From positions 3,810,618 to 3,874,617 of the forward strand of contig NZ_JADWYS010000001.1 in NCBI RefSeq assembly GCF_015831345.1: DNA of 64,000 nt. Direction: 5' to 3'. The notes beneath the pieces are model-generated. The model was not told where the DNA came from. It was given only the letters and a program-made list of their open reading frames with translations, and ran no database searches. How positions within the stretch are numbered: position 1 is the stretch's first letter; every line of letters begins with the position of its first letter. The stretch comes from Caenimonas aquaedulcis. Its GTDB lineage: Bacteria; Pseudomonadota; Gammaproteobacteria; Burkholderiales; Burkholderiaceae_C. A program made the position numbers and the translations under genes. Shown here piece by piece: positions 47,074 through 57,678 of this stretch.

Positions 47074-48480
47074 ATGACAGTTCGCACCCGCTTCGCCCCG
47101 TCCCCCACGGGCTTCATCCACCTCGGCAACATCCGCTCGGCGCTCTACCCCTGGGCCTTCGCGCGCTCGCAGCAGGGCGACTTCATCCTGCGCATCGAGG
47201 ACACCGACGTCGAGCGCTCCTCGCAGGCCGCGGTGGACGTGATCATCGAAGGCATGGCCTGGCTCGGCCTCGACCATGACGAGGGGCCGTTCTACCAGAT
47301 GCAGCGGATGGACCGCTACAAGGAAGTGCTCGCGCAGCTGAAGGCATCCGGCCAGGTCTATCCCTGCTACATGAGCGTCGAAGAGCTGGACAAATTGCGC
47401 GAGCGCCAGATGGCCGCGAAGGAAAAGCCTCGCTACGACGGCACATGGCGGCCCGAGCCCGGAAAGACCTTGCCACAGGTGCCGCAGGGCGTGCAGCCCG
47501 TGCTGCGTTTCAAGAACCCGACCGGCGGCGTCGTCGCCTGGGAGGACAAGGTGAAGGGCCGCATCGAGATCAGCAACGACGAGCTCGACGACCTCGTGAT
47601 CGCGCGGCCGGACGGCACACCGACGTACAACTTTTGCGTGGTGGTGGACGACATCGACATGCGCATCACGCACGTGATCCGCGGCGACGACCATGTGAAC
47701 AACACGCCGCGGCAGATCAACATCTTCCGCGCGCTGGGGGTGGAGCCGCCGGTCTATGCGCACCTGCCGACGGTGTTGCAGGAAGTGACGGACGCTGACG
47801 GCACGGTGCGCGTGGAGAAGATGAGCAAGCGCCACGGCGCCAAGCCCGTCACGCAATACCGCGACGAAGGCTTCCTGCCCGACGCGATGGTCAACTATCT
47901 GGCGCGCCTGGGCTGGAGCCACGGTGACGACGAGATCTTCAGCCGCGAGCAGTTCATCGAGTGGTTCAATCTCGACCACCTGGGCCGCAGCGCAGCGCAG
48001 TTCGACGAGGCCAAGCTGCGCTGGGTCAATGCGCAGCACATGAAGGCCATGGACGACCGCGAACTGGCCTCGCTCGTCGCCGCGCAGCTCGACAGGCGCG
48101 GCATGGAAGGAGACAGGCGCCTGCCGGGCATCTGCGCGCTGTTCAAGGACAGATGCGACACCACGGTGGCGCTGGCGGATTGGGCTGCGAAGTACTACGG
48201 GCCCGTGAAGCGTGACCCGGAGGAAGTGGCCAAGCACGTGACGGACGGCGTGCGTCCGGCCGTGAGCATGCTTGCGAAGATGCTGGAGGGCGTGGAGTGG
48301 GAAAAGGCTGCGATCTCCGAGGCGATCAAGGAGGTTTTGCGCGCCACGGGCCTGAAGATGCCGCAACTCGCCATGCCGGTGCGTGTGCTGGTGATGGGCA
48401 CGGCGCAGACGCCTTCGCTGGACGCGGTGATCGCGTTGTGCGACCGCAAGACAGTGCTGGAGCGTCTCGCGGCGGCGTGA
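47074..48480 (+). CDS. gltX: Glutamyl-tRNA synthetase
   Basis: The 468-residue class I synthetase charges tRNA-Glu. The HIGH-type motif is in [17 protein letters not shown] near 8-24 and the KMSKS-type motif is VEKMSKRHG near 249. The discriminating, bacterial-type catalytic domain is followed by the helical anticodon-binding region. The ATG at 47074 was chosen from the conserved N-terminus [13 protein letters not shown] tRNA-Glu gene lies 168 bp downstream, so enzyme and substrate are encoded together. Confidence 0.95.
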
Positions 48481-48493
48481 GAATTTTTCGGGC

Positions 48494-48499
48494 TATAAT
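48494..48499 (+). promoter_or_regulatory. -10 box of the probable tRNA cluster promoter
   Basis: A perfect TATAAT lies 51 bp before tRNA-Ala and 13 bp past the gltX stop. No convincing -35 hexamer is seen 16-18 bp upstream, where the sequence is gltX coding DNA. The following 50 bp would be the 5' leader of the tRNA precursor. Confidence 0.5.
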
Positions 48500-48550
48500 T
48501 CAAGGCTCGGAAATTGACGGGCTATCTGCAGGGGCAGGGCTGGCAATCAT

Positions 48551-48626
<76 letters not shown>

Positions 48627-48648
48627 ACCGAAGTTAGTTCAAGGTTTT

Positions 48649-48724
48649 GACCCTATCGTCTAGAGGCCTAGGACATTACCCTTTCACGGTAAGTACCGGG
48701 GTTCGAATCCCCGTAGGGTCGCCA
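48649..48724 (+). tRNA. tRNA-Glu (TTC)
   Basis: The 76-nt gene has a GACCCTA/TAGGGTC acceptor stem, anticodon loop CTTTCAC (anticodon TTC), T loop GGTTCGAATCC and encoded CCA. Charged tRNA-Glu is used both for translation and by HemA for haem synthesis; hemA is at 10-11 kb and gltX is just upstream. Confidence 0.96.
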
Positions 48725-48815
48725 AATTGCTCGCATCGGTCAGAAGTGACTGCTCGCGGACGACACGGCAGCAAGCCGGTTGCACTTGGTCCGCGAGGAC
48801 GAAAGCAATCTACCA

Positions 48816-48892
48816 GGAGTGGTAGTTCAGTTGGTTAGAATACCGGCCTGTCACGCCGGGGGTCGCGGGTTCGAGTCCCGTCCACTCCGCCA
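48816..48892 (+). tRNA. tRNA-Asp (GTC)
   Basis: The 77-nt gene has a GGAGTGG/CCACTCC acceptor stem, anticodon loop CTGTCAC (anticodon GTC), T loop GGTTCGAGTCC and encoded CCA. It is the last tRNA of the cluster and sits next to the accessory secretion locus. No second copy of its 3' end was noticed downstream. Confidence 0.96.
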
Positions 48893-48900
48893 GAATCACC

Positions 48901-48932
48901 AAGGGGTTGGCTCGCAAGGGCCAACCCCTTTT
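48901..48932 (+). terminator. Rho-independent terminator after the tRNA cluster
   Basis: A perfect 11-bp stem (48901-48911 with 48920-48930), 8-nt loop and a run of T residues at 48929-48932 lie 8 bp after tRNA-Asp. Confidence 0.9.
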
Positions 48933-48942
48933 GTCATTGAAC

Positions 48943-48958
48943 ATTCCAAATTTGGAAT
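48943..48958. promoter_or_regulatory. 16-bp perfect palindrome upstream of the secretion locus
   Basis: ATTCCAAATTTGGAAT is a perfect palindrome in an AT-rich patch between the tRNA terminator and the chimeric secretion gene at 49126. The remaining 48959-49125 shows no gene; it holds AAGGA 6 bp before the start codon but no promoter that stands out. The palindrome could be an operator. Confidence 0.4.
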
Positions 48959-49125
48959 TTTCGAGCTCCATGGGCCTCGCCTCGGGTTGGGCCTTCCGGT
49001 TCGTGGAGGTGGTCGGTCACTCCTCTTCGGTTGGGGAATGTCCCCAGTCATGCCCTGTGTCGCGGTAACCGATACGTAACGCGTAGGGTTCTAGAGTCAT
49101 TTGCACCTCCATATAAAGGAACCAA

Positions 49126-52100
49126 ATGTCTCTCGACCTGAACGGTAGCCCCGCCGGCACGAACTACGTGATCTCGTACCTCGACGACAGCTCTGCGATC
49201 GGCATCGTCGCCTCGGGCGTTGTCGTCGGGAGCGGCAGCTCGTCCGTCAACACGGACGGTGTGAACGCGATACAGATTGGGGGCAACTGGGCATCGGGAG
49301 ACTATCTCCAGATCGGCACGCTGCCGTCGGGGTTGGTACTGTCCGGCCCAGGCATTGCGGCGGGGGCGACCTCATGGACCGGCCAGGCGACAGGCCCCGT
49401 CTTCATCCAGCGCGCGTCGCAGTCGACGACACCAGACGCACAGTGGGGAGCCGCGCTTCAATGCGTGAAGTTCTACAACAGCACGCCCCAGCCCGGGCCG
49501 CAAGGCCTGACCGCCGCGTCGCGCACCATCAACATCGATACGCTCAATGCCAGCGGCGCGTTGATCTCGCACGCGACAAGCACGATTAACGTCAATAACG
49601 CGCCGTGGGTGCCGGCCCAGGTGGGCAACGCCACGGAAGCCGGCGGCGTGAACAACACGACAGCGGGCGCGCCGGCGACGGGCAACGTGCTGCAGGGACA
49701 AGTCATCGACGATCCCATGGATGCCAGCACGGACGTGGTCTCGGCGGTGAGCTTCGGCGGCGCCGCGGGCACGGTCGGCAGCGCCCTGCAAGGCGCGTTC
49801 GGCAAGTTGACTCTCAACAGTGACGGCAGCTACACGTACGCCATCGACGAGACCAACGCATCGGTACAAGCGCTGGCCACGAGCGCGCAGATCCTGACGG
49901 AGGTCTTCAACTTCACGGTGCGCGACACCGCGGGCGCAACGGGCTCGTCGCAGTTGAGCATCGCGATCCACGGAGCGAATGACGCCGCGACGATCAGCGG
50001 CACCAGCGCGGGGACGGTCACTGGCAACAGCAACGTCGTCGCCGGCAACTTGACAGCCGGCGGCGCGTTGAGCATCAGCGATCCCGATGCGGGGCAATCG
50101 TCGTTCGTTGCCCAGTCGTCCGTCGCGGGAACGTACGGCACGTTCACCCTGGCAGCCAACGGAGCCTGGACCTACGCGGCGAGCAATTCGCAAAGCGCGA
50201 TCCAGGGGCTTTCGACGGGCCAGACGCTGACGGACTCGTTCACTGCGAGGTCGCTCGACGGGACATCGAGCAAGGTGGTGGCGGTGACCATCCAGGGGCC
50301 CTATCGCGCGCCGGTGGCGGCTGCGGACACGGCCACGGCCGTAGAGGCGGGGGGGGTGAACAACGCTTCCGCGGGAGCCAATCCGGTCGGCAACGTCCTC
50401 GCTAACGACACCGTGGATCCGGGTGATAGCAAGACCGTAGCGGCCGTGATGTTCGGCGCGACGGCCGGAGCGGTGGGCAGCGCGCTCACGGGCGCTTACG
50501 GGAGCCTCACGCTGAATGCCGACGGCAGTTACGCCTACACGGTCAACAACAGCAACGCGTCGGTGGAGGCGCTGCGCGCCGGCACGAATACGCTGGCGGA
50601 CACCTTCAGCTACACCCTCAAGAATTCCGCAGGCGCCAGCAGCACGGCCACGTTGACGATCACCATCCAAGGAACCAACGACGCGCCGGTGGCGAACCTG
50701 GACCGCTTCGACGTTGTCGCGAGCGGCACGGCCAACGGCGGCACCGTGACGACCGGCGTCAGCGGCAACTTGCTGGCCAACGACGCCGACGTCGATGCGG
50801 GCGACACGAAGCAGATGTCCTGGTGGTCTGGAAGCAATTCACCCTACGGGACCGCCGGGAGTGTCACAGCCGGCGGGTTCACGTTCACGGTGAACAGCAG
50901 CAATGCGGCGGTGCAGGCGCTCCGCACGTACAACGACACGCTCACGGCGTCGTACCTCGCCGTGATGGCGGCGATGGGCGGCCCCGTCGCGCTGGTGCCG
51001 CTGGTCACCATTCCGCTCATGATCGGAACCTCGCTCGCCCTGCAGGGCCCGCTCGATCGGGCGGTGCAGGCATCCATGCAGGCGTCCGTGCAGAAGCAGT
51101 CGATGACCATCGAGGTGCTCACGGGCATCGAGGCACTCAAACTTGCCGCGGCCGAAGGCATATTCCAGGGCGCGTGGGAGCGCAGCGTGCGGCAGATCTC
51201 CAAGGCCGGGATGCGTTCCAAGCTGATCTCCAGCTTCGGCTCTTCGATGATCGGCTTCTACCAGTCGATCGCAGGCGTGGCGCTGGTGATCGTCGGGGTC
51301 TACCAGGTGAGCGAACAAAAGCTCACGCTGGGTGGGCTGATCGCGTGTTCGATCCTCATGTCGCGCGCCCTTGCTCCCATGAGCCAGGTGGCAATGTTCC
51401 TCGCGCGCTGGGCGCAGACGAAGATTGCACTGCGCAGCGTGACGCGCCTTCTCGAAAGAGCGGTGGAGCGCCCCGAGGGCAAAACGTTCGTCTTGCGTGA
51501 CCGGATCGAGGGAAGCGTCGAGTTCCGCGCGGTGACCTTCTCGTACCCGGGCGCGCCGGTGCCCGCCTTGCGCAACGTGAGCTTTTCCATTGCCGCGGGC
51601 GAGCGCGTCGCCATCATCGGGCGCTCAGGCTCCGGCAAATCGACCATCGCCAAACTCACCACGGCGCTCTACGACGCGGCCGAAGGGTCGGTGCTCGTGG
51701 GCGGGGTGGACACGCGGCAGCTCGATCCGCACCAATTGCGTCGCGCGATCGGCGCGGTGGCGCAAGATCCATTCCTCTTCAACGGTTCCGTGCGCGTGAA
51801 CATCGCCTACGGCTCCGACGCGGTGGACGACCACCGCGTCATGGATGCCGCGAAGGAGGCCGGCGTCGACGAATTCGTGCGCGCGCATCCCATGGGCTAC
51901 GACCTGCCGGTGGGTGAACGCGGCGCGCTGGTGTCCGGCGGCCAGCGGCAGGCCATCGTTCTCGCGCGCGCGCTCGTCGGAGACCCCTCCGTGCTGCTGC
52001 TGGACGAGCCTTCCAGTTCGCTGGACCTCGCGGGGGAACAGGCGCTTCGGGCACGCCTGCAGACCTTGCGTACGGGCGAAACGCTCATCCTCATCACGCA

Positions 52101-52224
52101 TCGCCTGCAGCTCCTCGACATCGTCGACCGGGTGATCGTGATGCATGACGGAAAAGTCGCCATGGATGGTCCGCGCGCGGCCGTCATGGAGAGGCTTGCA
52201 CGTCCCGCCAAGGAGGCGCCATGA
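49126..52224 (+). CDS. Chimera: VCBS-repeat adhesin N-terminus fused to C-terminal half of a LapB-type T1SS ABC exporter
   Basis: The 1032-residue ORF joins two unrelated parts. Residues 1-165 are a glycine- and serine-rich N-terminus; about 168-286, 287-393, 404-517 and 520-608 are VCBS/cadherin-like repeat units with ANDAP-type linkers, the last one broken after DTLTA. From about 610 the sequence becomes an ABC exporter: two or more membrane segments (611-640, 709-728), then an ATPase with Walker A GRSGSGKST (832-840), signature VSGGQRQA, Walker B VLLLDEPSSSLD and the H-loop at 992. The exporter lacks its C39-like domain and the first membrane helices; the adhesin lacks its C-terminal secretion signal. 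AAGGA precedes the ATG. It is most simply a deletion fusion, or an assembly join. Confidence 0.8.
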   Translation: MSLDLNGSPAGTNYVISYLDDSSAIGIVASGVVVGSGSSSVNTDGVNAIQIGGNWASGDYLQIGTLPSGLVLSGPGIAAGATSWTGQATGPVFIQRASQSTTPDAQWGAALQCVKFYNSTPQPGPQGLTAASRTINIDTLNASGALISHATSTINVNNAPWVPAQVGNATEAGGVNNTTAGAPATGNVLQGQVIDDPMDASTDVVSAVSFGGAAGTVGSALQGAFGKLTLNSDGSYTYAIDETNASVQALATSAQILTEVFNFTVRDTAGATGSSQLSIAIHGANDAATISGTSAGTVTGNSNVVAGNLTAGGALSISDPDAGQSSFVAQSSVAGTYGTFTLAANGAWTYAASNSQSAIQGLSTGQTLTDSFTARSLDGTSSKVVAVTIQGPYRAPVAAADTATAVEAGGVNNASAGANPVGNVLANDTVDPGDSKTVAAVMFGATAGAVGSALTGAYGSLTLNADGSYAYTVNNSNASVEALRAGTNTLADTFSYTLKNSAGASSTATLTITIQGTNDAPVANLDRFDVVASGTANGGTVTTGVSGNLLANDADVDAGDTKQMSWWSGSNSPYGTAGSVTAGGFTFTVNSSNAAVQALRTYNDTLTASYLAVMAAMGGPVALVPLVTIPLMIGTSLALQGPLDRAVQASMQASVQKQSMTIEVLTGIEALKLAAAEGIFQGAWERSVRQISKAGMRSKLISSFGSSMIGFYQSIAGVALVIVGVYQVSEQKLTLGGLIACSILMSRALAPMSQVAMFLARWAQTKIALRSVTRLLERAVERPEGKTFVLRDRIEGSVEFRAVTFSYPGAPVPALRNVSFSIAAGERVAIIGRSGSGKSTIAKLTTALYDAAEGSVLVGGVDTRQLDPHQLRRAIGAVAQDPFLFNGSVRVNIAYGSDAVDDHRVMDAAKEAGVDEFVRAHPMGYDLPVGERGALVSGGQRQAIVLARALVGDPSVLLLDEPSSSLDLAGEQALRARLQTLRTGETLILITHRLQLLDIVDRVIVMHDGKVAMDGPRAAVMERLARPAKEAP
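50349..50356 (+). repeat. G8 homopolymer tract within adhesin repeats
   Basis: Eight consecutive G residues encode Ala-Gly-Gly-Val in the third VCBS unit. The equivalent place in the first unit is interrupted (GCCGGCGGCGTG), so the run is not required by the protein. Such tracts can slip during replication or be misread in sequencing. Confidence 0.7.
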
Positions 52225-53546
52225 ACTTCGGGGCATGGACGCAACGCTTCGGCTCGTGGAAGGAAGAGGCGCTGTCGGATCCGGAGGGTGACGACGGCAC
52301 GCGCTCGGTGCGCATCGTCACCTGCACCGTCGCGGTCTTCGTGATCGCGGCATTCATCTGGGCGTCCATGTTCCACATCGACGAGCTTGCGCGGGGACAG
52401 GGCAGGCTGGTCCCCGTCGGACGGGTGCAGCCCGTGCAGAACCAGGATGGCGGCGTTCTCGTGGCCATGCTCGTCGCTGAAGGCTCCCGCGTGCGCGCCG
52501 GCGATGTGCTGGCCGAGCTCGACGACAAGACGCAGCGGTCCGACTACGAGGAGCCTCATCGCAGGTGGCTGCAGAGCATCGCCTCGCTCGCAAGGATCGA
52601 AGCCGAACTCGCCTCACGCCCGATCGCGTTTCCGCATTCGCTGGAAGGGGAGCAGCGCATTCGCGACGATGAAATCGCCGCCCACCGAGCCAATCGCGCG
52701 GAACTGGCCGCAATTCTCGCGGGCTACGACGAGATTGCCATACAAAAACGCGAGATGCTCGAGCGCGCGCGGCGCGAGCTGGTCCTGCGCCAGCAGGAAG
52801 CCGCGATGCTGGTCAAGGAGCTCGAAATCGTCAGGCCGCTGGTGCCGGCGGTGCTGGCCGAGACGGAAGTGCTGCGCAAGGAGCGGGACCTGCTCAACGT
52901 GCGCAGCAGCGTCGTGGCGCAGGAACATGCGATGGGCGAACTGACAAGCGCTATCGCACAGGCGCGTGCCGACCACGCCAAGGCGTTAGGGGACTATCGG
53001 GCACGCCTGCAGAAAGAGCTCGTGGAGCGCCGGGCGGACGCCGACATCTACGCGCCCAGGAGCGCGGCGCGCGCCGACAAGGTCGCGCGCGCCAAATTGC
53101 TCGCGCCTGTGGACGGCGTCGTGAAGGCGGTGTACTTCCGTCGCCCAGGCCAGGTCGTTCCGCCTGCGGGGGTCGTGCTGGACCTTGTGCCGACCGACGA
53201 GGTGCTCATGATCGAAGCGCGCATCCTGCCAAGCGACGTCGGGTTTCTTCGCCCGCACCAGCGTGTCCGCGTGAAGGTGTCGTCTTTCGATTTCGCCATC
53301 TACGGCGCGCTGGACGGCACCGTTCGCAACATCAGCGCGGACTCCGTGCAGGAAAAGGACGGCAAGGAGTTCTACGTCGCCCAGGTCGCGCTGGAAGGTG
53401 TGCTCAAGGACAAGTCGGGTCAGCCGTTGCCGCTCGTTCCCGGCATGCAGGTCAACCTCGACATCGTGACGGGCAGCCGGACGGTGCTCACCTATCTCTT
53501 CAAGCCGATCGTGCGCGGTTTGAACCAGAGCTTCACGGAGAGGTAG
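52221..53546 (+). CDS. T1SS membrane fusion protein, HlyD/LapC type
   Basis: The 441-residue periplasmic adaptor has one membrane helix (about 31-50), a half-lipoyl domain starting ARGQGRLVPVGRVQPVQNQDGGVL, a long coiled-coil region (about 110-290, rich in REMLERARRELVLRQQEA-like heptads), the second lipoyl half (APVDGVVKAVYFRRPGQVVPPAG) and a beta-barrel C-terminus with VLTYLFKPIVRG, the HlyD-family end. It would link the ABC exporter to the TolC-like protein. The ATG overlaps the chimera's stop (ATGA), implying coupled translation. Confidence 0.9.
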   Translation: MNFGAWTQRFGSWKEEALSDPEGDDGTRSVRIVTCTVAVFVIAAFIWASMFHIDELARGQGRLVPVGRVQPVQNQDGGVLVAMLVAEGSRVRAGDVLAELDDKTQRSDYEEPHRRWLQSIASLARIEAELASRPIAFPHSLEGEQRIRDDEIAAHRANRAELAAILAGYDEIAIQKREMLERARRELVLRQQEAAMLVKELEIVRPLVPAVLAETEVLRKERDLLNVRSSVVAQEHAMGELTSAIAQARADHAKALGDYRARLQKELVERRADADIYAPRSAARADKVARAKLLAPVDGVVKAVYFRRPGQVVPPAGVVLDLVPTDEVLMIEARILPSDVGFLRPHQRVRVKVSSFDFAIYGALDGTVRNISADSVQEKDGKEFYVAQVALEGVLKDKSGQPLPLVPGMQVNLDIVTGSRTVLTYLFKPIVRGLNQSFTER

Positions 53547-53550
53547 CGGC

Positions 53551-54864
53551 ATGCGTGTTCGGTTTCGGCTCATGGTCGTTGCGCTGGCTTGCGTGTCGAG
53601 CGGCGGTGCGCTCGCGCAACGGATGGCGGCCGCGGACCTCGTGCGGCATGTGATCGCTGTCGACCCCCAGCTTGCGGCACGGCGGGCTAATGTCCGCGCG
53701 GCCGACGGCGATCGGCTTGCGGTGCAATCCGCGCTGTACCCGTCTATCGATGTCTCGTCGCAAATCGGCCGTGCAGGGCAGAAGGACTTGCCGACCCCCA
53801 GCCAGTTCAGCGCGAACGACGGCGTCTCCCGGCCAGCCTACTCACGATCGCTCACGATCTCGCAATTGCTCTTCGACAGCGGCAAGTCGGCGATGGAGCT
53901 GGAAATCGCGAGGACGCAGATCCTGCGCGAGGCGATCGCACTGGAGAAAGCCGTGAACGAACGCTCGCTCGCCGCGCTGCAGGCGATGCTCGATCTGGCG
54001 GCGGCCCGCGAGAAGCTGTCCCGCGCCAAAGCCACGCAGGGACGCCTGGAGCATCTGGTCGAACTTGTCCAGGGCCGTATGCGATCGGGGCAGGCACCCC
54101 TCGTTGAATTGCGCCGATCGCAGAGCAGGCTGCTCGAGCAACGAAGGGCGGTCGCCGAGCTCGAGGGCACTGCACGGCAGGCGGTAAAGACGTTCAGTCA
54201 GGTGACGCAGCTCGACCCTGCGAAGCTTGAACTCATTGCGCCTCCGGACGCCGCTCCCGATATCGCCGAACTGGAGCATTTGAGGTCCGCGTGCGAAGTG
54301 TCGTGTGTGGACGTGAAAGATGCAGAGACTGCAGTGCGGATCGCGGAACTCCAGCTCAAGGCGATGGCGTCCGGCTTTCTACCGAAGGTGGTGCTGCAGG
54401 CATCCGCGTCCCGCGCGCTCAACCCCGGAGGCGCGCAAGCACACTATGCGAGCCGCACGGTAGGGCTTGTCGCCAGCTGGAATCTCTTCGCGGGCGGTGG
54501 CGATGTCGGCCGCCGCCGGGCGGCCGCCGAGCGGCTCGATTCCGGGCGGTCTCAGAAGGATGCGGTGGTCATCGAGTCGCTCGGCCAGTTCGATCGTGTG
54601 CAGCAGCTGTTCCTCACCGCATCGGAGGTGGAACAGCTGGGGAAGTCCGCGGCCGAAATCGCGTCCGACACGCGCTCGCTGGCGGAGAAGGGTTACGAGG
54701 CGGGAGTGCGCCCCTTGCTCGACGTGGCCGACACGCTGGTGGAAGAGAACCGCGCACAGGCGGCCCTGATCGATGCCGGGACCCAGAAAAACCTCGCTTG
54801 GTTCCATCTGCTCGCACTTCACGGCGAGCTCGCTCGACGCATCGGAGCCGTCGACACCTACTAG
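53551..54864 (+). CDS. T1SS outer-membrane protein, TolC type
   Basis: The 437-residue protein has a signal peptide (MRVRFRLMVVALACVSSGGALAQ) and two OEP repeats that would form the TolC beta-barrel and helical tunnel: LYPSIDVSSQIGRAGQ, LTISQLLFDSGKSAMELEIAR in the first half and FLPKVVLQASASRAL, VASWNLFAGGGDVGRRRAA in the second. It starts 5 bp after the HlyD-type gene. It ends 7 bp before the convergent regulator gene. Confidence 0.88.
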   Translation: MRVRFRLMVVALACVSSGGALAQRMAAADLVRHVIAVDPQLAARRANVRAADGDRLAVQSALYPSIDVSSQIGRAGQKDLPTPSQFSANDGVSRPAYSRSLTISQLLFDSGKSAMELEIARTQILREAIALEKAVNERSLAALQAMLDLAAAREKLSRAKATQGRLEHLVELVQGRMRSGQAPLVELRRSQSRLLEQRRAVAELEGTARQAVKTFSQVTQLDPAKLELIAPPDAAPDIAELEHLRSACEVSCVDVKDAETAVRIAELQLKAMASGFLPKVVLQASASRALNPGGAQAHYASRTVGLVASWNLFAGGGDVGRRRAAAERLDSGRSQKDAVVIESLGQFDRVQQLFLTASEVEQLGKSAAEIASDTRSLAEKGYEAGVRPLLDVADTLVEENRAQAALIDAGTQKNLAWFHLLALHGELARRIGAVDTY

Positions 54865-54870
54865 CGCGTG

Positions 54871-55914
54871 TCAGGCGGCGGTGTGCCCGGACGACTCGCC
54901 GAGCAGCCCGAGTTCCCGCGCGAGGCGATGGGTTTGCGGGCATGGCGGCTGGCTCAGGATCACGGAGAGCGTGTCGCGGCAAAAACGATAGTGGCTCCAT
55001 GCGGCAGCCCAGTCACCTTGCGCGTGCGCGGAACGCATCAGGCCGCGATGGGCCGATTCGCAAAGCGGCTCCGCGTCGAGGACGCGCTGCCAAAGGCGGT
55101 CGGCTTCGATCCAGCATTTTCGGGACTCGAGCTCCTGGCCGAGTGCCGAAGCGGTCGATATGAACTGAATCGACAGCTTGCGTTGAACCGCCGTGAGCCA
55201 GCCGATTTGCTCCGCGCCGCAAATGCCGCCCCTATAAAGCGCGAGCAGCCCGGCACCTAGCCGCGTCAGCACGGCGGTCGCGATATTCTTCAGGCCGAGG
55301 GATACGCAATCCGCGAGCCTCGACATTGCTTCCACATCTGTCCACACCTTCTCCGGGTTCAGCGAGATGCGCCCGCCGCGAACAATGACGGTGTCATCGC
55401 TGCCGAGCAGCTTGCGCAACCGGTGAATGCTGATGCGTAGTGCCGAATTGGGGGACTCGCACCCGTCCCACAGCCGGTCCTGAAGGAATTCCGACGGCTT
55501 CCCGGCGGGCCCTGCAGCGGCCAGAAGGCACAGCAGGTCGAGCACACGCTGCTGGGCCCTGCCGTTCCATGTCACGTGCGACCCTTTCACCTCGATGCGC
55601 ATCGCGCCGAGCACGCGAACGCGGACGTTGTCGGTTCGGTGGCCGACGTCGAAGCAGCCATCCATGAGCGCATCGAGCAGGTCGCCGGCGCTGCGGCCGA
55701 TCGGATCGTTCGCGCCGGATCCGGAACTTGCCTGGCTGAAGTCGATGAGGAGCTTCGCTGCTGCCGTGTCGCCTGTGGATTCGATGAAGCATGCCGCGAG
55801 GGCGAGACAGGCATCAATCACCCTGTTGGCTGCAATTGCAGCAGGCGGGAGGGTCGCGAGAGGCGCGGGCCTATCCGTTCCCGCAAGATTCGCTCGGAGA
55901 GGACTGCTTCGCAC
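54871..55914 (-). CDS. BTAD/SARP-type transcriptional regulator
   Basis: The 347-residue protein has an N-terminal helical region (about 30-95) of no clear family, an OmpR-like winged-helix domain (about 100-185: VRVLGAMRIEVKG, RAQQRVLDLLCLLAA, SALRISIHRLRKLLG) and a bacterial transcriptional activator domain (about 190-335, ending HYRFCRDTLSVILSQPP). The GTG at 55914 is preferred because AAGGAG lies 6 bp before it; the open frame up to 56127 lacks coding character. Related regulators are often much longer, so this may be a shortened form. It converges on the secretion operon and may control it. Confidence 0.75.
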   Translation of the reverse strand: MRSSPLRANLAGTDRPAPLATLPPAAIAANRVIDACLALAACFIESTGDTAAAKLLIDFSQASSGSGANDPIGRSAGDLLDALMDGCFDVGHRTDNVRVRVLGAMRIEVKGSHVTWNGRAQQRVLDLLCLLAAAGPAGKPSEFLQDRLWDGCESPNSALRISIHRLRKLLGSDDTVIVRGGRISLNPEKVWTDVEAMSRLADCVSLGLKNIATAVLTRLGAGLLALYRGGICGAEQIGWLTAVQRKLSIQFISTASALGQELESRKCWIEADRLWQRVLDAEPLCESAHRGLMRSAHAQGDWAAAWSHYRFCRDTLSVILSQPPCPQTHRLARELGLLGESSGHTAA

Positions 55915-56232
55915 GCGGAACTCCTTCTGTTGTCTCCTGGGGCCTGGTTGCAGTTTCCGAGTGCACCGCCCTTCGTTCTTCCATCGTCCCAGTTTCCTGA
56001 AACTCATTGTCGGAAAGCGATGGGCACAGCGAATCCGCCTTATGGCTGAGTCGTGTTGGGCCTTTCGACACTTGCCGAGCGACGATGCTGCGATTCGTAT
56101 GCACGACCCAGCAGCAACGACCCACATCCCCCTCCAGCTTCCGCCTACAAGCCATTGCCTTGCGCCGCACTAGATTGAATCGACGCGGCTGCGTCGCACG
56201 CCTGCACGCCCGCAACACGACAGGAGATCACC
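55915..56232. other. Intergenic region between BTAD regulator and hemerythrin
   Basis: This 318-bp divergent region has no gene that can be supported. It holds the AAGGAG site of the regulator (55921-55926, minus strand) and AGGAG about 6 bp before the hemerythrin ATG. A TAGATT hexamer at 56171-56176 could be a -10 box but has no matching -35 element. Base composition is somewhat more AT-rich than the neighbours. Confidence 0.6.
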
Positions 56233-56670
56233 ATGGCCCAGGACGCCATCGCCTTGCTCGAAGCGGATCACCACCGGGTGGAAGAGCTGTTCCGCGAATT
56301 CAAGTCGGCCGGGGACCCGCAGGCCAAGCTGCACCTGGCCCAGGTGATCTGCATGGAGCTCACCCTGCATGCCATGGTGGAGGAAGAGATCTTCTATCCG
56401 GCCTTCGCCCGCGCCACCGGCGACGAACAGGTGCTGCAACACGCGCTCAAGGAGCACGCGGAGATCAAGGAGCTGATCGCCAAGGTGCTCACCGCCGAGA
56501 ACCTCGACGGCGCGATCGAAGCCGTCAAGCAGCACACGCTGCACCACGTCGATGACGAGCGCAAGGGCATGTTCGCCAAGGCGCGGGCTTCCGGCATGGA
56601 ACTCGCCACGCTCGGCGGGCAGATCCAGGCCCGGCGTGCCGAGGTAGCCGACGCGATCCAGGAAGCCTGA
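56233..56670 (+). CDS. Hemerythrin domain protein
   Basis: The 145-residue four-helix protein has the hemerythrin iron-ligand pattern: LLEADHHRVEELF near 8-20, MELTLHAMVEEEIFYPAF with His and Glu, LKEHAEIKELI, and HTLHHVDDERKGMF. It would bind O2 or NO at a diiron site or sense redox state. The ATG at 56233 is preceded by AGGAGATC. It converges with the esterase gene. Confidence 0.9.
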   Translation: MAQDAIALLEADHHRVEELFREFKSAGDPQAKLHLAQVICMELTLHAMVEEEIFYPAFARATGDEQVLQHALKEHAEIKELIAKVLTAENLDGAIEAVKQHTLHHVDDERKGMFAKARASGMELATLGGQIQARRAEVADAIQEA

Positions 56671-56673
56671 GCT

Positions 56674-57678
56674 TCAGCCCATCGCTCGCACCAGCAGCGG
56701 CAGGCTCACATCCATCCGGTAGTCCACCGAGGAGTGGTTGTCCGGGAATTCCTCGTAGGTGTGCGGCACGCCCATCGCGTCGAGCCGCTTGTGCATGCGC
56801 CGCGCGCCATAGACGAGGTTGTACTGGTCCACGTCGCCGCAGTCGATGTATAGCGCCTTCATCTGCTTCAGGCCAGGCCCGTGCTTCTCCACCAGCACCA
56901 AAGGGTCCCACGCCATCCAGTTCGCCCAGCGCTCGGGGATGATCTCGCAGGTGTCCGGCGTCACCGGCAGGCGAAGGCCGTAGCGCGCGGTGGGGTCGGG
57001 GTCGAAGCTCGCGGCCTGCGCCAGCATCATGATGATGTGGACGTCGCTGTCCTTCGTCTTCTTCGCCTGCCAGAACTCGTCCACCCACTGCGCCAGGTCG
57101 GGCTGCTTGGCGAGCGCCCGCAATACCGGCACGAATTCATGCCTGTACAGCAGTTCGAAGCCCATGTCGCCCGAGTGCACGCCTGCGGCGCTCCAGAAAT
57201 CCGGATGGAGCAGCGCATGCGTCATCGCGCCATAGCCGCCGCTCGATTTGCCGAAAAGCCCGCGCCGTCCCGCGCCACCGCACTTGAATTGCTGTTCGAC
57301 CAGCGGCACGGCTTCCTTCAGCAGGAAGTCATCCCAGCGCCCCATCGCCACGGAGTTCACGTACTGGTTGCCGCCGAGTTTGGTGAAGCAATCGGGGAAG
57401 GCCACCACCACGGGCGGCATCTGCCCTTCGGCGATCAGGCGGTCCAGCCGCTCGGGGACGTTCTCGCCGAAGTTCTTCCAGTTGGTGTGCGCCGGGCCGC
57501 CGGCGGTGAATCCCACCAGGTCGACCAGCAAGGGCAGGCCGCGCCCGTCATGGCCGTGCGGCACATAGACATCGACGATGCGCCGCGTCGGGTCGCCGAG
57601 CAGGTTGCCCTTCAGCGCGTCGCTGTCGAGCGTGAGCCGATGGATGGTGCCGGCCGGGGTGTCGGGATTCTTTCGCAT
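56674..57678 (-). CDS. Alpha/beta hydrolase, esterase D-like
   Basis: The 334-residue protein has the alpha/beta fold with nucleophile Ser145 in FGKSSGGYGA and a probable catalytic histidine in FPDNHSSVDYR; the pattern resembles enterochelin-esterase/EsteraseD-type hydrolases. There is no signal peptide, so it is probably cytosolic. The substrate is unknown. It is 30 bp downstream of dadA on the same strand. Confidence 0.8.
   Translation of the reverse strand: MRKNPDTPAGTIHRLTLDSDALKGNLLGDPTRRIVDVYVPHGHDGRGLPLLVDLVGFTAGGPAHTNWKNFGENVPERLDRLIAEGQMPPVVVAFPDCFTKLGGNQYVNSVAMGRWDDFLLKEAVPLVEQQFKCGGAGRRGLFGKSSGGYGAMTHALLHPDFWSAAGVHSGDMGFELLYRHEFVPVLRALAKQPDLAQWVDEFWQAKKTKDSDVHIIMMLAQAASFDPDPTARYGLRLPVTPDTCEIIPERWANWMAWDPLVLVEKHGPGLKQMKALYIDCGDVDQYNLVYGARRMHKRLDAMGVPHTYEEFPDNHSSVDYRMDVSLPLLVRAMG

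Follow-up and report, generated by a model that had tools for sequence, protein, structure and literature searches.

Does a frame that begins as a secreted adhesin and ends as a type I exporter represent a new machine, the remains of an old one or a flaw in an assembly? The question is raised by a 64,000-nucleotide (nt) stretch of the Caenimonas aquaedulcis genome (RefSeq assembly GCF_015831345.1, contig NZ_JADWYS010000001.1, positions 3,810,618 to 3,874,617), called the window below, in which a single open frame (49126..52224, plus strand, ATG start, 1032 amino acids (aa), no internal stop) leads from VCBS adhesin repeats into an exporter of the LssB/LapB type. The original prediction took this frame for a chimera of a VCBS adhesin and a LapB-type exporter, and the family searches agree, placing TIGR01965 in the N-terminal half and TIGR03375 in the C-terminal half. 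The evidence presented here makes it probable that a genuine in-frame deletion has turned an accessory type I secretion system (T1SS) operon into a non-functional remnant, i.e., that the locus is a case of ordinary gene decay and not a new machine.

Structure of the fused frame

The frame is preceded by a purine-rich AAAGGA located 5 nt upstream of the ATG. The GC content at third codon positions (GC3) amounts to 0.82–0.91 in 19 of 19 segments between 49126 and 52125 and shows no break at the junction, so the whole fusion looks coding, in the same frame on both sides of the join. This evidence matters because the region is GC-rich (0.60–0.72 per kb) and long chance frames abound in it, several of which appear in the list of frames.

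In the adhesin-derived half, TIGR01965 scores 205.2 bits against a cut-off of 15.5, with three stretches, and a partial fourth cadherin-like unit follows the third VCBS repeat, Cadherin_4 matching this last unit. The genome contains seven VCBS places in total, three of them in the fusion. No RTX family was found in the Pfam table of the fusion or among the best 25 of 188 NCBIfam families, the C-terminal RTX block and secretion signal region being absent; a simple scan gave no hydrophobic segment over the threshold before residue 606, and hence no visible Sec signal.

The exporter-derived half is matched by TIGR03375 (LssB type I secretion permease/ATPase) over residues 610–1026, which correspond to the C-terminal 417 positions of the profile (278–694 of 696), with a score below the family cut-off (539.1 vs 693.1 bits). 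In an alignment with HlyB (7sgr_J), residue 611 falls on HlyB residue 283; thus transmembrane (TM) helices TM1 and TM2 and the first part of TM3 are missing, the homology starting inside TM3. Profile positions 1–277, which comprise the C39-like domain, TM1, TM2 and part of TM3, are absent, and residues 1–607 are adhesin instead. The predicted lack of both the adhesin C-terminus with its secretion signal and the N-terminal domain and first helices of the exporter is borne out by the absence of these positions and of any RTX family. The six-helix set is incomplete; a crude scan, which also overlooks TM segments of relatives, showed hydrophobic stretches only at 606–639 and 707–725. The alignment contains the Walker A, ATP-binding cassette (ABC) signature and Walker B motifs, with the H-loop just past the PF00005 match; the signature reads VSGGQ in the fusion vs LSGGQ in the 11 relatives aligned.

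Location of the join and searches for similar fusions

According to the alignment with 11 full-length relatives, the exporter homology runs about Y610 onwards. TLTASY closes the last adhesin unit, and the exact breakpoint inside residues 607–610 cannot be fixed because this end resembles the TLTDSF found there in one of the fusion's own units. A junction probe composed of residues 509–705, where the join is probe position 101 (residue 609), was searched against 369 sampled genomes of the class (E ≤ 1e-12) and found matches in 36 genomes, including this one. The matches of the 35 other genomes sit in open frames of 418–982 aa, and 33 of these 35 begin at probe position 98–102; the remaining two begin on the adhesin side, at positions 91 and 72 (10 and 29 residues before the join), in frames of 770 and 725 aa. 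The position reported earlier for the sharp switch, residues 603–611, is thereby supported, the join lying at 607–610.

Searches with the whole fusion gave matches in eight other genomes of the genus (E ≤ 1e-85, 60 searched), beginning at residue 606 or later, and 22 matches in 19 other genomes across the order (E ≤ 1e-110, 399 searched), beginning at residue 600 or later and held in open frames of 721–765 aa. No second fusion was present among the above-threshold matches in the 60 same-genus, 399 order and 369 class genomes searched, and none of the 5000 best-scoring plasmid records covers 80% of the fusion query in one place. A scan of 12 loci in named genomes yielded partial matches only, the best at 37% along the exporter half, and was uninformative as to the join; repeat ends of other adhesins, looked for with a regular expression, gave no hit. 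Places on Sinorhizobium meliloti pSymB combining adhesin and ABC matches were considered as a second fusion and rejected: in strain R11, the one record opened in detail, the exporter is encoded by a separate 595-aa gene of the PrtD type, with repeat fragments upstream; a second S. meliloti record carries no annotation at this place. This R11 cluster (L175 5400–11400), where adhesin-repeat fragments precede the exporter gene and HlyD is annotated in two pieces, itself looks partly broken. The literature searches, which were not designed to prove absence, turned up no title on an adhesin-exporter fusion, and no novelty is claimed.

Search for the missing parts

A profile built from nine LssB N-halves was run against the C. 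aquaedulcis genome, and all 29 candidates were scored (29/29). Beyond four matches, none of them LssB-type, no LssB-type N-half was found on either contig. Two of the four lie inside exporters at C1:3617–3619 kb that exceed the PrtD family cut-off (628 and 675 bits vs 510); the other two adjoin, in two frames, at C1:2970437–2971010 (E = 5.7e-9) and form an N-half of the HlyB type (TIGR01846 vs TIGR03375: 110.6 vs 38.8 and 66.7 vs 27.8 bits). Since the profile found this HlyB-type N-half at such an E-value, it should be sensitive enough for an LssB N-half. The dedicated profile is relied on here because TIGR03375 itself, searched at E ≤ 10, missed the HlyB N-half, which does match it; among the best 77 of 139 candidates of that search, no match was confined to profile positions 1–277. 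As for the adhesin C-terminus, no T1SS_VCA0849 match in the genome exceeds the cut-off (best E 0.171), and RTX repeats are no use for recognising the lost end because they are abundant: there are at least 157 matches at E ≤ 1 (from the best 150 of 297 candidates), in frames that include those of 4695, 3274 and 3043 codons.

The HlyB-type N-half is part of a disrupted cluster (L171 9276–11987; C1:2970275–2972986), where it runs directly into a HlyD C-terminal end (TIGR01843 393–421 of 422). A further HlyD end (TIGR01843 311–422) is located nearby in a frame beginning 1.1 kb on, and an RTX frame of 4695 aa lies about 5 kb away. This cluster represents another type I secretion wreck, decayed further than the fusion, and not the missing half of the latter. 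At another place (L088 4729–8469; C1:4444728–4448468), a frame of 1246 codons that carries VCBS and delta-60 repeats breaks off immediately behind a VCBS unit, with no C-terminal secretion region, and a VanZ-family frame (PF04892) begins where it ends. Both the wreck and the abruptly ending VCBS frame fit a general loss of such systems in this genome, and the wreck, taken together with the fusion, illustrates how one lineage has repeatedly lost type I secretion clusters. The genome thus combines two broken type I exporters with abundant RTX frames; the PrtD-type pair at C1:3617–3622 kb is still whole.

Gene order in relatives and proposed origin

Two genomes of the same genus (G029 and G080) carry, on one strand, a separate cargo frame, a gap of 53 nt, LssB (741 and 795 aa) and HlyD, where LssB and HlyD overlap by 4 nt as they do in the window; TolC directly follows HlyD in G029, and in G080 the contig ends before that point. 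The cargo frames, cut by the contig end on their 5' side, contain RTX repeats in the C-terminal part. The collinear order needed by a simple deletion therefore exists in the genus, but it is neither the sole order nor that of the closest exporters. This order and the lack of an LssB-type N-half elsewhere in the genome support the earlier suggestion that a deletion joined cargo and exporter. The separate cargo and exporter genes sought in relatives were thus found in these two genomes, but the cargo lacks VCBS repeats and other relatives are ordered differently.

According to the proposed scheme, the ancestral operon would have had the order adhesin – lssB – hlyD – tolC, and the deletion would have removed the C-terminal part of the adhesin, secretion signal included, the spacer between the two genes and roughly 277 codons from the start of lssB. 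What remained would be one 1032-aa frame comprising cytoplasmic adhesin repeats, an incomplete transmembrane domain and an ATPase domain. Such a protein could neither recognise or pass cargo nor leave the cell, and would be a remnant heading for loss; hlyD and tolC would still be whole because they are located downstream of the deletion and the reading frame happened to be preserved (a chance of 1 in 3). We infer that a single deletion was the origin and that the cellular DNA matches the assembly.

Several observations weigh against this scheme. The join is unproven, being known from the assembly sequence alone. No VCBS model matches the cargo of G029 and G080, and their LssB proteins, about 41 and 40% identical to the fusion, are not the closest ones. 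The closest exporters, about 50% identical, belong to Cupriavidus sp. P-10, Burkholderia stagnalis YJ-2 and one other genome of the order; in Cupriavidus and B. stagnalis a large repeat protein (2894 aa with Ig-like repeats in the latter) is encoded after HlyD, not before LssB. Five of the eight same-genus loci likewise have, after HlyD, a long frame that runs off the end of the sequence stretch, and in one (G008) the order is not resolved in the frame list. The ancestral order is uncertain for this lineage because both the closest exporters and these five loci carry the long frame after HlyD. HlyD and TolC are whole, and type I secretion as such has not been lost, since at C1:3617–3622 kb the genome retains a whole PrtD-type exporter pair, which exceeds the family cut-off and is followed by a HlyD match.

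The retained exporter half also shows little sign of damage. A comparison with 14, 19 or 27 representatives chosen from 53 relatives, a choice that removed duplicates of the same gene, found departures at 1/34, 1/31 and 2/41 near-invariant sites, within the range of other members (0 to 0.245). A smaller test with 11 relatives had given departures at 11 of 84 sites vs 0–8%, the fusion also being the most divergent member there, and the excess damage it suggested was set aside in favour of the larger test. With no clear excess of damage in the ATPase half, the event may be recent; this state fits a recent event and also leaves room for selection on some remaining role.

Alternative explanations and probable loss of function

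A local assembly or consensus error, in which a segment of a long repetitive gene was lost on assembly and the genome itself holds complete adhesin and lssB genes, is rather unlikely. The length and repetitiveness of such adhesin genes count in favour of an error of this sort, as do the 1246 codons of the second VCBS frame in the genome, the occurrence of the fusion in one genome only among those searched and a weak repeat pair (D8; 30 nt, 73%, 10 identical starting bases), the second copy of which (50950–50979) falls on the join. D8, however, is short and of a size expected by chance, and is taken for chance; no repeat of useful length pairs the two sides of the join within 48400–57500 (best 20 of 25 direct families). 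Moreover, the assembly consists of two contigs with an estimated completeness of 100 and contamination of 0.13, frame and GC3 are unbroken across the join, and an LssB-type N-half is found on neither contig. The variant originally put forward, collapse of a large repeat gene by the assembler, is weak as stated: besides the lack of a long repeat pairing the two sides, collapse alone shortens an array and does not explain its fusion with the interior of a non-homologous gene.

Retention of the fused protein for a new job, e.g., as a membrane-bound ATPase with cytoplasmic repeats or as a partner of another exporter subunit, working with HlyD and TolC, is very unlikely. The 1032 codons open in frame, the presence of the ATPase motifs, the conserved sites without clear excess of change and the tight coupling to hlyD would all suit it, but the transmembrane domain is incomplete, being cut inside TM3, there is no C39-like domain, the adhesin repeats have no evident export route, and the fusion was met once among the genomes searched and not in the 5000 plasmid records at the coverage given above. 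The specific form of this idea, a maintained protein in which the truncated exporter half, anchored in the membrane and including a repeat domain, works as an ATPase module that uses HlyD/TolC or pairs with another exporter, appears still more improbable. Exporters of the LssB kind are dimers with six helices per subunit, and a functional hybrid, if true, would contradict this layout; nothing found here points there.

In the passages of PMC8277102 that concern HlyB, the C39-like domain is described as needed to recruit and tether cargo, and RTX cargo as bearing a C-terminal, non-cleavable secretion signal. The fused product most likely neither sticks nor pumps. The adhesin half would not be carried to the surface because there is no visible Sec signal and the C-terminal type I signal region is lost, and it should stay in the cytoplasm; the membrane-tethered surface-protein/ATPase hybrid envisaged at first is not supported in view of the same two features, namely the lack of a Sec-like segment before residue 606 and the loss of the C-terminal signal end. 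Between a new role and decay, which the original prediction had left as a question, the evidence favours decay, since another T1SS cluster of this genome is wrecked as well, and a new role is unlikely.

Finally, an inversion or transposition that carried the missing halves elsewhere in the genome is highly improbable and nearly refuted already: members of the genus differ at the site next to tRNA-Asp and an orphan exporter N-half exists at C1:2970437–2971010, but this N-half scores as HlyB-type, is joined to a HlyD end and not to an adhesin, and no LssB-type N-half was found.

Neighbouring genes and insertion site

The coordinates of the features are collected in Table 1.

Table 1. Features of the fused frame and its surroundings (positions in the window)
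Feature	Position	Strand	Evidence
tRNA-Ala, tRNA-Glu, tRNA-Asp	48551..48892	+	tRNA search
Adhesin part, about residues 1–607: N-terminal segment without Pfam family, then VCBS/cadherin-like repeats	49126..50948	+	Pfam, TIGR01965 and Cadherin_4 matches
Three VCBS repeats: 49777–50028, 50062–50346, 50479–50700	49777..50700	+	TIGR01965
Junction, residues 607–611 (T-A-S-Y-L)	50944..50958	+	profile match, alignment with relatives, junction probe
Exporter part, LssB/LapB-type: within TM3 through TM6 and nucleotide-binding domain	50953..52221	+	TIGR03375 278–694/696; residue 611 aligned to HlyB 283 of 7sgr_J
ATP-binding cassette PF00005; nucleotide-binding domain intact	51568..52014	+	E = 1.5e-29, profile 1–136/137
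HlyD-type periplasmic adaptor, full length	52221..53546	+	TIGR01843 295.6 vs cut-off 208.65, profile 2–422/422
TolC-type outer membrane protein	53551..54864	+	open over 12–401/414 of family model
Regulator-like ORF (open reading frame) with BTAD domain, convergent with tolC	54871..56127	-	Pfam match

The downstream genes had been described as intact and translationally coupled. This is right for hlyD, which is full length and whose start overlaps the fusion's stop codon (ATGA at 52221), but the start of tolC lies 4 nt past the hlyD stop, so that these two are closely spaced without overlapping. The TolC-type protein remains under the TIGR01844 cut-off (141.7 vs 225.15), as does the same-genus TolC of G029 (190.1). 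At E ≤ 1e-30, none of the 59 further genomes of the genus holds a counterpart of the protein. The regulator-like ORF may belong to the cluster, judging by its position.

On the other side, gltX and the three tRNAs occur in the same order in 11/11 same-genus loci compared, and the blastn similarity to these loci stops at 48892–48898 (10/11) or 48931 (1/11), i.e., at or just past the 3' end of tRNA-Asp. Among the same-genus matches listed, the highest gltX identity is 87%. The secretion genes were not found (tblastn, E ≤ 1e-10) at the tRNA site of the 11 loci, in stretches of 17–19 kb. The cluster is considered an accessory insert at a variable place because these loci diverge at tRNA-Asp without secretion genes. 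An island with attachment repeats, formed by a tRNA-targeted integrase, was considered and is unsupported, as the 3' end of tRNA-Asp (24 nt, ≤ 6 mismatches, both strands) recurs nowhere else in the window.

The locus calls for caution in annotation: a pipeline that sees VCBS, ABC_membrane, ABC_tran, HlyD and TolC could call a complete T1SS and a 1032-aa adhesin/exporter, and neither cargo nor exporter is whole.

Comparison with known systems

With exporters of the LssB/LapB type (TIGR03375) the fusion has in common the C-terminal 417 positions, the ATPase motifs and the place directly before hlyD and tolC; it differs from them in lacking positions 1–277 and in having about 607 adhesin residues in their place. 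With VCBS/cadherin-repeat type I secreted adhesins, such as WP_148219582.1 of Azospirillum sp. B510 (47.5% identity over fusion residues 139–610), it shares the VCBS repeats, but it has no C-terminal part and so neither an RTX block nor a secretion signal. Deletion-fusion pseudogenes are a known general kind, in which loss of the intervening DNA likewise fuses two adjoining collinear genes in frame. The present case differs in that the partners are a cargo and, presumably, its own exporter; nothing else about it is unusual, and it appears to add one more example to a known type of event.

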